Below are positions 10,954-23,108 of a DNA stretch of 37,126 nucleotides, in pieces. The position numbers and the translations under genes were made by a program. Below the pieces are notes generated by a model. That model was not told the DNA's origin. It did not search any database and saw nothing but the letters and a program-made list of their open reading frames with translations. The stretch's first letter is position 1, and every line of letters starts with the position of its first letter. The DNA is from Lachnospiraceae bacterium (GTDB lineage Bacteria > Bacillota > Clostridia > Lachnospirales > Lachnospiraceae), in assembly GCA_030537215.1 (NCBI GenBank), contig JAUNOF010000001.1, positions 1 through 37,126 of the forward strand, read 5' to 3'.

Positions 10954-11469
10954 TTGAACCCGCAGCTGCAGTTGGAACGCTGGATGAGCGAATATCAAAA
11001 CTTAATATATTCCATCTGCTACCGCCTGACTGGCGATTACTTTGATGCGGAGGACCTGACTCAGGACACTTTCCTTTCTGCCTACCGGCATCTGAAGGAG
11101 TTTGACGGTCAGAACGAAAAAGCCTGGCTGTGCCGGATCGCCACCAATAAATGCATCGATTACCTGAAACGGGCCGGACGGCGCTCTATCCCCACTGAGG
11201 AGCTATTCTTTTCTTCCCTGCCGGATGGCCGCTCCTCCCCGGAAAAGGAGGCTCTTAAGACAGAGGTCCGGCAGCAGCTTTATGAAAGCTGCTGCAAGCT
11301 GCCGCCGCCTTACCGTCAGGCTGCCCTGGATTATTACTATTATGAACTGGATATCAGCCAGATCGCTGCCAAAACCGGGAAAAATAAAAAAACATTGCAG
11401 ACGCAGATCTACCGCGCCAAAGGAATGTTAAAAAAATTGATGAGAAAGGAAGATTTGTGCTATGATTAA
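10954..11469 (+). CDS. ECF-type RNA polymerase sigma factor
   Basis: 171 aa with the two ECF domains: region 2 (LIYSICYRLTGDYFDAEDLTQDTF, split near residues 17-40, then WLCRIATNKCIDYL) and region 4 (LPPPYRQAALDYYYYELDISQIAAKTGKNKKTLQTQIYRAK in the last 60 residues, read as motifs). It would direct RNA polymerase to its own regulon. The start is TTG 10954, fixed by GGAGG at 10940-10944; no better ATG exists upstream. The stop overlaps the next gene by 8 bases, so translation is coupled. The downstream membrane protein is the likely antagonist. The signal sensed is unknown. Confidence 0.9.
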   Translation: MNPQLQLERWMSEYQNLIYSICYRLTGDYFDAEDLTQDTFLSAYRHLKEFDGQNEKAWLCRIATNKCIDYLKRAGRRSIPTEELFFSSLPDGRSSPEKEALKTEVRQQLYESCCKLPPPYRQAALDYYYYELDISQIAAKTGKNKKTLQTQIYRAKGMLKKLMRKEDLCYD

Positions 11470-11959
11470 AGAAATGAATAAAATTTCCTCTCTGACCGAA
11501 CGAAATGCTGCCGATCCGGCAGAAGGAAATCTCCCCTCCAATCTGCAGGAATTCTCCCTTCTGTGTCAGGATGACCATTGGCTTTCCGATTTCATCCAGG
11601 ATACGGAGAATCACCAGATGCTGACAGCACCTTCCCGTCTGATGCCGGATACACTGGCAAAGCTTCAGAAAATCCAGCTTTCCAAGCGGATCCAGCTGAT
11701 CACCTACAGCTTGAGAGTCAGTCTGGCTGCTGCCGGAGCGATTATGATTCTCTTTACAACTCCGATCCTTCTGGAGCATTCCCCCTTCGGCATAAATGCC
11801 ATGGGACAGACGGCAGGGTGGGAACGAACTGCCATTCACCAGTACCAGCCCAAAGCTGCCCAGGCTGCCCGCCAGCTAAGATCCAGACTTTACGATTTTT
11901 CTGATTCGATCTATCAATTTTCAAATGAACTTTTTACAGGGAGGAATCAACATGACTAG
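11462..11959 (+). CDS. Putative membrane anti-sigma factor
   Basis: 165 aa with no recognised family by eye. It has a soluble N-terminal half of about 75 residues, one membrane segment (LAAAGAIMILFTTPILL, about residues 84-101) and a short external tail. This cytoplasm-membrane-outside layout, together with direct overlap with the ECF sigma gene in front and an 8-base overlap with the gene behind, is what anti-sigma factors show; the function is inferred from this. No HxxxCxxC zinc motif is present, so it is not a classic ZAS-type anti-sigma. Confidence 0.55.
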   Translation: MIKEMNKISSLTERNAADPAEGNLPSNLQEFSLLCQDDHWLSDFIQDTENHQMLTAPSRLMPDTLAKLQKIQLSKRIQLITYSLRVSLAAAGAIMILFTTPILLEHSPFGINAMGQTAGWERTAIHQYQPKAAQAARQLRSRLYDFSDSIYQFSNELFTGRNQHD

Positions 11960-19407: not shown

Positions 19408-20184
19408 TTACTTCCAATTTTCCAGCAGGATCTGGGTCAATTCCTCTGCATCGGATGCGATCCGGTCTGCGCCGGCCAGTTCCAGTTCTTCCCGGCTTCC
19501 ATAGCCCATCAGGACACCAACGCTCTGAAGTCCATTTATCTTTGCACCGATAATATCATGCTCCCGGTCTCCCACCATAACAGCTTCTGCCTTCCATGCC
19601 ATGACCGCCTGAGAATCTGCCTTTTGTTGATCCGGCTTTTGTGCATCCGCCTTCTGTTGATCTGACTTCTGCGCATCCGTTTTCTGTTGATCGGCCTCCA
19701 GACAGATGTGAGAAGAAGCCCATTGGTGCTCCATCACATATCGGATTACATCCTCCTTTTTCACCCGTGTTTCCCCCATATCGGCGCCGCCGATAAAGGT
19801 AAAGTAGGAATCTAACTGAAAATATTCCAGGATTTGTCTTGCAAACTTCTCCGGCTTTGAAGTCGCCACCAGAAGCACCTTTCCTGCCTTCTGCAGACGC
19901 TCCAGCATAGAACGGATCCCCGGCAGCTCCTCATTTTCAAAGATCCCCTTCTCTGCAAAATACTCCCGGTAAACCCAGACCGCCTCATCTGCCTGCTCTT
20001 TCGAAAATTGGTAATACTTCATAAAGCTGTCCCGCAGAGGCGGACCGATAAAAGGCGTCAGCTTCGTTAGCTCCGGTTCCTCGATGCCATAACGGCGAAG
20101 GGCATATTGAACGGATTTTGTGATGCCCACCATAGGGTCCGTCAAGGTTCCGTCAAGGTCAAATAACAGATATTTCTTTTCCAT
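19408..20184 (-). CDS. HAD-family phosphatase with a repeat insertion
   Basis: 258-aa haloacid dehalogenase-type hydrolase of the phosphoglycolate phosphatase/PGMB group: motif I LFDLDGTLTDPM (nucleophile Asp and acid Asp near residues 8-10), helical cap, motif II VATSKPEKFA, and motif IV VMVGDREHDIIGA. The normal protein is about 215-220 aa. The extra length is a hydrophilic insert of about 30-35 residues placed between the motif III region and motif IV and built of decapeptides such as DQQKADAQKP. Such phosphatases remove phosphate from small metabolites; the substrate is not predictable. ATG 20184 follows GAGGAGA; promoter at 20213-20241. Confidence 0.88.
   Translation of the reverse strand: MEKKYLLFDLDGTLTDPMVGITKSVQYALRRYGIEEPELTKLTPFIGPPLRDSFMKYYQFSKEQADEAVWVYREYFAEKGIFENEELPGIRSMLERLQKAGKVLLVATSKPEKFARQILEYFQLDSYFTFIGGADMGETRVKKEDVIRYVMEHQWASSHICLEADQQKTDAQKSDQQKADAQKPDQQKADSQAVMAWKAEAVMVGDREHDIIGAKINGLQSVGVLMGYGSREELELAGADRIASDAEELTQILLENWK
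19611..19696 (-). repeat. 30-bp tandem repeat inside the HAD gene
   Basis: Two full 30-bp units (19621-19650, 19651-19680) plus partial units on each side, in frame, coding DQQK-T/A-DAQK-S/P repeats. The units differ at several silent and non-silent positions, so the array is not brand-new. Confidence 0.85.
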
Positions 20185-20212
20185 GCCAGCTCTCCTCATT
20201 CTTTTCTTTCCG

Positions 20213-20241
20213 ATTATACAGAGGATTCGATTGGAAATCAA
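20213..20241 (-). promoter_or_regulatory. Promoter of the HAD gene
   Basis: Minus-strand TTGATT (20241-20236), 17-base spacer, perfect TATAAT (20218-20213). Confidence 0.6.
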
Positions 20242-20354
20242 GCGCAAATTGGCAAGGGCGATCCGCATGCTCTCGGGTTTTCTGTGACTTTCCCTGCGCT
20301 TCGCTCACAAAAAGCACCTGGCAAGATACCGACGTGAACCGTAACCTGGCTGAA

Positions 20355-21797
20355 CTATGATTTTTCCGCAGGATTCCTGCATACCCCTAAAAACAGCCAG
20401 GCGCCGCTGGAGGAATCCTGGATTCCGAAGAGGAAGGGGCGGTCTAATATCATCTCCGCCTCCAGTTCCGGCATCTGCATCGCAGATCCAGCCATGGCCA
20501 TCATGGTATAGGCGGCGCCTTCCACCCCCTGCTCATCAATGGCGATATGCGTTTCCTGAATCACCTGGGATACCCAAAGAGGCTGATCGGAGATACCGTT
20601 AAATTCCGCGTTATCGGTAAACATCCGCTCCATCCCCATGACTTTTAAAGAATCCGGCAGCTTCTTTATGCTGCTTCCGAAAGAAAACTTTGGAATCTTC
20701 CAGGTAACCTTTCCAGAAATCCAGTTTTGGCTATCCATATCCAAGGCACGCTCCAGGTCTTCCGGCGTGTTGAAAAACTCGCTTACCTTTTTGCCTTCAT
20801 CCGGAAGAAGAAATACCATTTTGCACCAGTTGTTGGTATTCAGACAGGACAGCGTATATCCCTCTCCCCTCTGAAAGCTTCCCTGCCCATCGGTTCGATT
20901 TAAATAGGGGCAGCTTACCTTGCTGCCATCTTCAAGCGTAAATTCATCCTCCTGCGTCAGAGACTCCTGAAATGGCTGCTGCCAGCTTCCGTAAAAATAC
21001 AGGGTGTTTAAAATACTCATCATGGTCTGCGGATCTGTCTGGATCACAGGAGATAATACACCCTTCGTCTGCTTTGCGATCCATTCACCCATCTGTTTCC
21101 CGGTCTCTTCCTTTGTGAAATCCGCAAGATAAGAAGAAGCAAAAAACTGCTGTGCTGCCAGCTGCTGATATTCCTTCTTCACATCAAGCTGGGGCGCGAT
21201 CCACAAGGAATTGGCTAACTGAATGGTACTTTTGTATTCTCCCTCGCCGTACTCCTCATATTCCTTTTTCATTCGCTGCTGGTCGTAGTAAAACCGCTGG
21301 TACATCTTCCCGCACTGACTGGCTAATTCCTCCTGGCTCTGGATTCCCAGGCAGTTCTGAATCTCTGCCGCCGTCTCCCCATTTGCCCCGCAGCCTGCCA
21401 GAGTCAGTGCGTAATAAAGGCTCAAAGGGCTGTAATTGGCATTTCCTCGTTCCTGCTTTAAGATCTGGCTTCCGCTCCGAAAAGCAAACTGCTTCAGCGC
21501 CTCCCGAAATTCTTCTGAAATTTCATTTTCATCCCGCAGCTTGTTCCAGTTCTCATAATCATCAACAGAAAAGTCAACTGGCTTCGGCATTGCCGCTTCC
21601 ATATTCTGTCCGGCATGCTGTAGCTGTACAGTGTTCGTGTTATGCTCGCTCGTCTGAATCGGCTCCTTTTTCTCGCTCATCTGATTGGCGTCATCCATTC
21701 CGGTCTGCTGGCATCCGGTTAGCTGAACGCATAGGATCCAAGCCGTCATCGCTGCTGTTATTCTTCTGAAATATGCTCGCCTCCTATTTTTCCTCAT
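20355..21797 (-). CDS. Lipoprotein serpin (serine protease inhibitor)
   Basis: 480 aa. N-terminal lipoprotein signal: basic start, hydrophobic stretch and lipobox LTGC with Cys29, so the protein should be lipid-anchored on the outer cell face. An acidic/polar spacer of about 70 residues precedes the serpin fold, which runs to the C-terminus (NYSPLSLYYALTLAGCGANGETAAEI is the classic NxxxSPxSI-type helix region, read in parts; LDRPFLFGIQD is the conserved post-loop strand). The reactive loop starts near Glu422: EQGVEGAAYTMMAMAG. The hinge Gly-x-Glu-Gly-Ala-Ala with small residues is of the inhibitory type. Start ATG 21797 follows GAGGAGG; the upstream in-frame extension to 21899 lacks such a site. 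Confidence 0.92.
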   Translation of the reverse strand: MRKNRRRAYFRRITAAMTAWILCVQLTGCQQTGMDDANQMSEKKEPIQTSEHNTNTVQLQHAGQNMEAAMPKPVDFSVDDYENWNKLRDENEISEEFREALKQFAFRSGSQILKQERGNANYSPLSLYYALTLAGCGANGETAAEIQNCLGIQSQEELASQCGKMYQRFYYDQQRMKKEYEEYGEGEYKSTIQLANSLWIAPQLDVKKEYQQLAAQQFFASSYLADFTKEETGKQMGEWIAKQTKGVLSPVIQTDPQTMMSILNTLYFYGSWQQPFQESLTQEDEFTLEDGSKVSCPYLNRTDGQGSFQRGEGYTLSCLNTNNWCKMVFLLPDEGKKVSEFFNTPEDLERALDMDSQNWISGKVTWKIPKFSFGSSIKKLPDSLKVMGMERMFTDNAEFNGISDQPLWVSQVIQETHIAIDEQGVEGAAYTMMAMAGSAMQMPELEAEMILDRPFLFGIQDSSSGAWLFLGVCRNPAEKS

Positions 21798-21966: not shown

Positions 21967-22545
21967 TTACAGAGTGAGAAGCCGAACCACCGCCTGCACA
22001 ATCAGCTCTGCAATTCCGCAGGATACCATAACCTTGATCGGCTCCGCCTTCCACACGCGAAGCGCTGCCATTGCCGCGGCAAAATAAAGAACCGGACGGA
22101 TCTGAAAATTCCCCTTAGAAAAATGTATGCTGCCATCCGCAAAAAAAGCCGGAACCAGAATGGCCAGTCCGGCGGTAAAAATCATGGCAACCACAGCCGG
22201 ACGCAGCAGCTTAAGCACATTCTGAAGAATGCTTAAGCTCCGGTACTTTGTATAAATCCACGCCAGAGTCGTGACAAAGACGCAGGACGGCAGAATACAG
22301 CCCAGGGTGGCTGCCAATGCTCCCGGCACTCCTGCCACCTGGTTTCCTACAAAAGTTGCGGCATTCACTGCAATCGGCCCCGGCGTCATCTCAGCAATAG
22401 TGACCAGATCTGTAAAATCCGACAAGGTAAGCCACCCGTACCCCTCGATCACCTGGGCCTGAATCAAGGGCATGGCCCCGTAGCCGCCGCCAAAGCTGAA
22501 TGCTCCAATCTGAAGAAATGCCAAAAATAAATTCAGATAAATCAC
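21967..22545 (-). CDS. Chromate transporter half, second gene
   Basis: 192 aa. One CHR domain (PF02417): FSFGGGYGAMPLIQ near the start and MTPGPIAVNAATFVGNQVAG (read in parts), then several membrane helices. Short CHR proteins work as a pair, each half equal to half of a full ChrA; known members move chromate or related oxyanions. Start is GTG 22545, with GGAGGG 7 bases before it, overlapping the stop of the partner gene by 4 bases, so translation is coupled. Confidence 0.9.
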   Translation of the reverse strand: MIYLNLFLAFLQIGAFSFGGGYGAMPLIQAQVIEGYGWLTLSDFTDLVTIAEMTPGPIAVNAATFVGNQVAGVPGALAATLGCILPSCVFVTTLAWIYTKYRSLSILQNVLKLLRPAVVAMIFTAGLAILVPAFFADGSIHFSKGNFQIRPVLYFAAAMAALRVWKAEPIKVMVSCGIAELIVQAVVRLLTL

Positions 22546-23108
22546 GTTGCTTCCCTCCTGTTCCGCTGAAAAAATAATGTCCGAAGGATTCCAAACCCGA
22601 TCACTGACAAGATGATATAAATCACATTGATACGCAGAAAGTAATTTGCCACGAAGGCCAGAAGCATAATCCCGATCCTTACCGGATCCTTCGTTTTCAC
22701 CACGCTGCTTCCCATATCGTATACCACAGAAATAATCACAGCTCCCACCCCTGACTTCATGCCGGACAGCAAAGCCTGAACTGCAAAGCTGTCCCGAAAC
22801 GCCTGATAAAACAGGGAAATCAGCGTCAGAATTATAAAGGGCGGAATCACCGCTCCCAGCACAGAGCAGATAATACCTGCAAACCCGGCCAGCTTATAAC
22901 CGATCACGATCGCTCCGTTGACGGCAATGGCTCCCGGCGAGGATTGGGCGATGGCAACCAGATCCAGCATTTCCTCCTGGTCAATCCAGTGAAGCTCATC
23001 CACAAATTTCTTTTTCAGAAGGGTTACAATCACATAGCCGCCTCCGAAGGTGAAAGTACTTAAAAATAATGTTGATAGAAATAATTGTCTTAATTTTCCG
23101 CTTTTCAT
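22542..23108 (-). CDS. Chromate transporter half, first gene
   Basis: 188 aa. The partner CHR domain: STFTFGGGYVIVTLLKK and SSPGAIAVNGAIVIGYKLAG (read in parts), with the same proline-glycine membrane motifs. First gene of a two-gene unit transcribed away from the LysR gene at 23314. A role in chromate itself is not certain; many gut members may carry other anions such as sulfate. Confidence 0.9.
   Translation of the reverse strand: MKSGKLRQLFLSTLFLSTFTFGGGYVIVTLLKKKFVDELHWIDQEEMLDLVAIAQSSPGAIAVNGAIVIGYKLAGFAGIICSVLGAVIPPFIILTLISLFYQAFRDSFAVQALLSGMKSGVGAVIISVVYDMGSSVVKTKDPVRIGIMLLAFVANYFLRINVIYIILSVIGFGILRTLFFQRNRREAT

Follow-up and report, generated by a model that had tools for sequence, protein, structure and literature searches.

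A probably lipid-anchored inhibitory serpin from a gut-type Lachnospiraceae bacterium, and related serpins encoded beside ECF-type sigma factor genes

A stretch of 37,126 nucleotides from a Lachnospiraceae bacterium (contig JAUNOF010000001.1 of assembly GCA_030537215.1), hereafter the window, carries a serpin gene whose product, judged from its sequence, is rather probably a lipid-anchored inhibitor of the siropin and miropin kind, one that would irreversibly trap small-P1 proteases at the cell surface. On this reading Lgt and LspA would lipidate Cys29, a linker of some 70 residues would position the serpin outside the cell, and an attacking protease would cut the reactive loop at A436, G437 or S438, whereupon the cut loop would enter sheet A and the enzyme would be locked as a covalent complex. 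Candidate enzymes would be those of the elastase type (proteinase 3 and the elastases of pancreas and neutrophils) or broad subtilisin-like ones, and the likely benefit would be that the bacterium shields its own surface proteins against proteases of the gut, the host or competitors.

The gene lies on the reverse strand (21797..20355) as a complete frame of 480 amino acids, which bears out the frame, coordinates and strand given in the initial annotation. Its features and immediate surroundings are as follows.

20355..21797, reverse strand: serpin gene, 480 aa, ATG at 21797 and stop at 20355, Pfam Serpin at 247 bits
21804..21809, reverse strand: ribosome-binding site AGGAGG just 5' of the ATG, read from the sequence
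21711..21797, reverse strand: signal peptide and lipobox, residues 1-29, core L26 T27 G28 C29, read from the sequence
21501..21710, reverse strand: hydrophilic linker, residues 30-99, read from the sequence, outside the Pfam match
20370..21500, reverse strand: serpin domain (PF00079), residues 100-476
20505..20534, reverse strand: hinge P17-P8, E422-T431 (EQGVEGAAYT), identity 0.914 among nine orthologs
20460..20504, reverse strand: reactive loop P7-P8' in the canonical count, residues 432-446, placed by alignment
20484..20492, reverse strand: predicted scissile residues A436 G437 S438, aligned to the presumed cleaved ends of miropin
21967..23108, reverse strand: chrA and chrB, chromate-transporter half genes (PF02417), co-directional and upstream of the serpin, context only
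19408..20268, reverse strand: HAD hydrolase (PF13419), co-directional and downstream of the serpin, context only; its likely start is near 20178-20184

That the protein is a serpin is beyond chance, since PF00079 matches residues 100-476 over profile positions 2-370 of 370 with 247.3 bits (E 3.7e-73, cut-off 27). It is the single domain found by Pfam in the protein, while NCBIfam has no model for it. In the PDB the full-length protein matches conserpin best (6ee5, E 5.7e-38), whereas its C-terminal 102 residues, which hold the hinge and loop, match miropin best (5ncs, 1.8e-13), followed by thermopin (1sng, 1.3e-11). Of 50 serpin consensus residues, 38 are identical, the exceptions including H334, replaced by Q414, and A347, replaced by G427. 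The former is the shutter position, where Gln is also found in 25 of 53 relatives. An AlphaFold model built from the protein and six relatives, seven sequences only, had a mean pLDDT of 46.8, too poor for a fold search. No second serpin was found in the genome, which is 89% complete. Across nine orthologs Cys162 and Cys325 never vary and Cys136 and Cys473 hardly do; outside the cell these four may pair up, as disulfides or in a redox-sensitive manner.

The hinge EQGVEGAAYT is found, as had been described, at residues 422-431, and the residues expected of an inhibitory hinge are present at E422, G424, G427, A428, A429 and T431, with the Tyr at P9 breaking the small-residue rule. The canonical motif is given as ExGTEAAAA (PMC8233489), from which the hinge departs at P14 (Val), P12 (Gly) and P9 (Tyr). 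In 50 serpins of the same order (out of 56, the fragments L043, L048 and L012_2842 and the deviant L054, L044 and L020 being left out), Val occupies P14 in 22 cases and Thr in 20, while P9 is occupied by Tyr in 21. With these frequencies, and with Gly at P12 also in thermopin, the departures are features of the family. An aromatic P9 accompanies an aliphatic P14 in 25 of 29 rows, as against one of the 21 with Thr, Ser or Ala at P14 (the three fragments and rows without Gly at P15 were omitted from this count). The pairing is a lineage mark; as independent evidence of coupling it was rejected, P14 changing four times and P9 three times on the serpin tree, which was built without the same fragments and with alpha-1-antitrypsin kept as outgroup. 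Counted from P17 to the Phe of the Pro-Phe pair, the loop has 34 residues compared with 29 in alpha-1-antitrypsin, and alignment to Conserpin-AATRCL gives the same five extra residues. The initial annotation had thus counted the loop correctly, but the length is ordinary: among 53 related serpins the median is likewise 34 (range 28-36, fragments again excluded), thermopin has 34 on the alignment and miropin 33. In other words, an excess of five residues is the norm for bacterial serpins.

The sequence varies unevenly along the protein. The nine orthologs form one clade (SH-aLRT 100), within which mean pairwise identity is 0.914 over P17-P8 as against 0.587 in the body, 0.600 over P7-P3 and 0.330 over P2-P6'. 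A constant hinge followed by a variable bait is the pattern expected of an inhibitory serpin, and together with the match to the whole Pfam profile this agrees with the earlier description of a full-length, inhibitory-type serpin of a gut-type Lachnospiraceae. Comparison with the sister sequence (91% identical) gives dN 0.028 and dS 0.304 in the body, and five nonsynonymous changes with one synonymous change in P1-P5' (dN 0.466, dS 0.349). Three of the 25 body differences lie in P1-P4' (hypergeometric p 0.0023, for a region chosen by function). A maximum-window permutation returned p 0.78, three differences per window of eight arising by chance, such that positive selection on the loop was not upheld and the cluster is a hint only.

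As for the site at which the loop may be cut, three miropin chains that resemble cleaved forms have 334, 335 and 336 residues in intact-chain numbering (5ncw, 5nct and 5ncu), and their last residues, V334, K335 and T336, align without gaps to A436, G437 and S438. From this we infer that the chain ends mark cleavage sites and that the three residues of the window serpin are a cluster of candidate P1 positions. All three are small, which would suit, and points to, elastase-like or broad subtilisin-like target proteases. At the position of G437 three of the nine orthologs have Arg, and miropin has Lys; the bait map therefore predicts that the Arg-bearing orthologs may take trypsin-type targets in addition. 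Were the elastase-type targets true, a bacterial surface protein would be linked to host gut proteases relevant in inflammation.

The anchor is the other half of the proposal. Cys29 is present, as had been claimed, at a lipobox and is preceded by L-T-G, the segment L26-T27-G28-C29 agreeing with the core pattern [LVI][ASTVI][GAS]C. The column holds Cys in all nine orthologs, and the genome encodes both LGT (E 1.6e-68) and signal peptidase II/LspA (E 1.2e-38). The stricter PROSITE-type pattern fails in the window serpin and its sister through Gln25 at position -4, but is passed at the Cys29 site by six of the nine orthologs. Scripted, the rule passes seven of the nine and 31 of 56 serpin rows, figures that include a false match within the serpin domain of ortholog L038, which has Leu at -1 and no lipobox at this site. 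The lipid anchor asserted by the initial annotation is thus likely on the core motif and the conserved Cys29, though the strict pattern does not endorse it. Among the papers listed for bacterial serpins with a lipobox or lipoprotein, no title or abstract opening mentions a lipid-anchored Firmicutes serpin.

Several alternatives bear on these two halves. Were ordinary signal peptidase to make the cut, leaving Cys29 unused, the serpin would be secreted and released. The strict rule failing at -4 and the Leu at -1 in L038 would fit such an outcome; the core LTGC, the Cys column without exception among the orthologs, the six genuine passes of the strict rule and the presence of Lgt and LspA genes make it improbable. 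Still less credit can be given to a non-inhibitory serpin that keeps only the fold for a storage, chaperone or binding role. Gln at the place of His334 and, set against the canonical GTEAAAAT, a P12 Gly and a bulky P9 Tyr could be taken in this sense, but Gly at P15, Ala-Ala at P11-P10 and Thr at P8 never change in the nine orthologs while the bait varies, and the combination of aliphatic P14 with aromatic P9, found in 25 of 50 rows, is common to many Lachnospiraceae serpins. Moreover, thermopin, a chymotrypsin inhibitor according to PMC8201313, also has Gly at P12.

A more serious contender, though on balance unlikely, retains the inhibitory mechanism and differs only in the enzymes, which would be subtilisin-like proteases of bacterial origin, made by the cell itself or by a neighbour. 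It is modelled on the proposal for the cellulosomal serpins of Clostridium thermocellum, of which PinA inhibits subtilisins (PMC8201313), and the genome itself gives six subtilase matches, alongside three of the chymotrypsin family. Subtilases are, however, matched in 87 of 98 relatives whereas serpins are patchy (39 of the same 98), so that presence does not discriminate and co-occurrence cannot test an own-protease target; none of six neighbouring genes scanned is a protease, and the siropins are described as lacking action on subtilisin from B. subtilis (PMC5127057). Least probable of all, by a little, is that the protein serves, instead of or besides trapping, as a surface protease sensor in which loop cleavage signals to a partner. 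The idea derives from related serpins, 21 of 150 of which are encoded directly after an ECF sigma gene, and whose N-terminal module is common to non-serpin sigma partners. It is chrA, and not a sigma gene, that precedes the window serpin; none of the nine ortholog rows of its clade is sigma-adjacent, and it has a lipobox where those cousins usually have an N-terminal module with a cytoplasmic part and a transmembrane segment. That the window's own gene belongs to a sigma circuit is given as little credence.

The trapping function proposed above is not read from the neighbours of the gene, because these vary among members of the genus. Local order is gpmI, lysR (opposite strand), chrB, chrA, serpin, HAD, ilvN, ilvC, with the serpin some 170 bp downstream of chrA, and the sister genome keeps the same order around the serpin. 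In genome G003 the serpin stands between gpmI and HAD, chrA and chrB being absent, and G010 and G001 have gpmI next to HAD with the serpin absent at that site, from which it follows that the serpin was gained or lost at the gpmI-HAD place. For the same variation within the genus, an operon role with the chromate transporters or the HAD phosphatase was set aside. A phage or plasmid origin was likewise rejected: two scans of viral contigs gave no relatives, and plasmids (98 records) carry only distant serpins, below 60% identity. Recent transfer is unsupported by composition, the GC content of the gene (0.493) matching that of the window (0.490). Within the HAD hydrolase there is an in-frame tandem repeat at 19615-19697 of the window, with periods of 30 bp and 15 bp and of the QQKADAQK type, inserted ahead of the VMVGDREHDI motif; orthologs have a shorter such stretch or none.

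Serpins are not uncommon in this part of the bacterial world, contrary to what had been stated. They occur in 39 of 98 genomes in the sample of relatives, in nine of 11 in the genus, and in 105 of 299 Lachnospiraceae genomes in a wider sample, the named bearers including Lachnospiraceae MAGs and isolate 1XD21-70. PMC6718151 lists Lachnospiraceae among serpin bearers, and PMC8233489 describes Group T serpins as abundant in human oral and gut microbiomes, naming the same family and placing in the group miropin, the siropins, tengpin and the B. longum serpin. Gut serpins trapping host proteases of the elastase type have already been published, and the window gene is fairly ordinary in Lachnospiraceae; it adds one probable surface-tethered serpin in a family of which about one third of the sampled genomes have a serpin.

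The best PDB match of the C-terminal part is miropin of Tannerella forsythia (5ncs, 5nct, 5ncu, 5ncw), in which several adjacent residues can serve as P1, to judge from the chain ends and PMC8201313. It differs in its P1 cluster (V-K-T as against A-G-S), in its canonical hinge (T-E-A-A-A-V-T as against V-E-G-A-A-Y-T) and in its Gram-negative host, and was predicted to be cytoplasmic in a paper that also cites its surface exposure (PMC4604654). Thermopin of Thermobifida fusca (1sng) has the hinge G-A-E-G-A-A-A-T, shares with the window serpin the Gly at P12 and a Met/Ala/Gly-rich loop of equal length, and differs in belonging to Group U (PMC8233489) and in its C-terminal tail. The remaining likenesses are by description only. 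Siropins 1 and 2 of the gut commensal Eubacterium siraeum have small-residue hinges and inhibit neutrophil elastase and proteinase 3 (PMC5127057); the former is predicted to be intracellular and the latter extracellular. The B. longum serpin and saburopin, from the commensal Eubacterium saburreum, are gut-associated and reported to inhibit elastase-type host proteases, in the case of saburopin pancreatic elastase (PMC8201313). The C. thermocellum proteins PinA, PinB and Clotm-serpin 3 are Firmicute serpins like that of the window; Clotm-serpin 3 is called a membrane protein (PMC6718151), and PinA is tied to the cellulosome and to subtilisin targets, whereas the window serpin has no such module.

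A side result on the cousins of this protein would, if true, outweigh the window gene itself, since serpins would then report proteases besides trapping them. Of 163 distinct serpins, 150 were kept after requiring 500 bp or more of upstream sequence and a frame no shorter than 380 aa, and after removal of one truncated duplicate. In 21 of these the end of an ECF-type sigma gene lies no more than 60 bp from the serpin ORF, or the two overlap, and in 15 more the sigma gene is further upstream, mostly with space for one gene between. Examples of the adjacent arrangement are as follows.

L087:2434-4583, sigma gene adjacent to serpin
L088:3657-5800, the same
L093:3594-5659, the same
L091:2830-4882, the same
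L095:3222-6153, the same
L090:2945-5079, the same
L092:2427-6158, the same
L177, L194, L150 and others, the same

Pfam finds sigma-70 region 2 in eight of ten sigma neighbours tested, and region 4 only in the other two, L005 (a cut-off ORF) and L089 (whose partner has HTH_3 and region 4). By script, 19 of the 21 adjacent serpins have, without a lipobox, a transmembrane segment at least 19 residues past a Met, the exceptions being L092_2997, with an ordinary signal peptide, and L089, whose segment was misplaced by the script; 16 of the 21 have a hinge-like motif by pattern. The same script, which is a loose one, assigns a lipobox to 79 of the 114 serpins that lack a sigma gene nearby. A profile of six cousin N-termini, searched in seven genomes, found nine non-serpin ORFs (E up to 1e-3). 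Compared by eye, each of the nine is co-directional with a sigma-70 region 2 match and lies 487-551 bp downstream of it, measured between 5' ends. There are 102 region-2 matches in these seven genomes (about 23.5 Mb), six of which were selected as carriers of serpin-sigma loci, and the remaining one is the genome of the window. Assuming one gene per kb, sigma genes thus make up about 0.4% of genes, as against 14% beside serpins. In a FastTree phylogeny of these 150 serpins, the adjacent state needs 18 changes, at least nine of them forced by well-supported branches, such that adjacency arose or was lost many times.

The picture that emerges from gene order and protein architecture, both of which are observed, is that serpins have probably been set repeatedly on a common anti-sigma-like chassis, perhaps to sense proteases. 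The serpin domain would be the outer half of a membrane protein partnering the ECF sigma factor; a protease would cleave it and be trapped, and insertion of the loop would alter the tethered protein, freeing the sigma factor and turning the response on. That the Lachnospiraceae cousins are protease-responsive partners of this kind is a tentative proposition, falling somewhat below an even chance, in which the sensing is the inferred part. If true, gut bacteria would own a gene switch that answers protease attack, and the window serpin would belong to the same radiation of serpins as its free, lipid-anchored arm.

Some further arrangements may be recorded. A sigma gene stands some 600-1300 bp upstream of the serpin in L060:5268-8550, which is from the window's genus, and in L005, L121, L137, L144 and L183; at loci of this type the layout is sigma gene, partner and serpin, most of the serpins have a lipobox, and the middle gene of L060 is a DUF4367 protein. 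The window itself holds an ECF-type sigma gene at 10954-11959 (region 2 at 10987-11184); in that interval it is followed by, and overlaps, a small gene whose product has a single hydrophobic segment and may be the cognate anti-sigma factor. The pair is not near the serpin. Also within the genus, a frame of 926 aa (L063/L094:2678-5455) carries DUF4825 (residues 155-241) and then a serpin domain (563-921). Finally, Lachnospiraceae genome G049 (contigs C44, C54, C94 and C153) has seven serpin matches, two of them overlapping neighbours on C94, six candidates having been scored for it in the wider sample, and tandem serpins occur also in L033 and L092.
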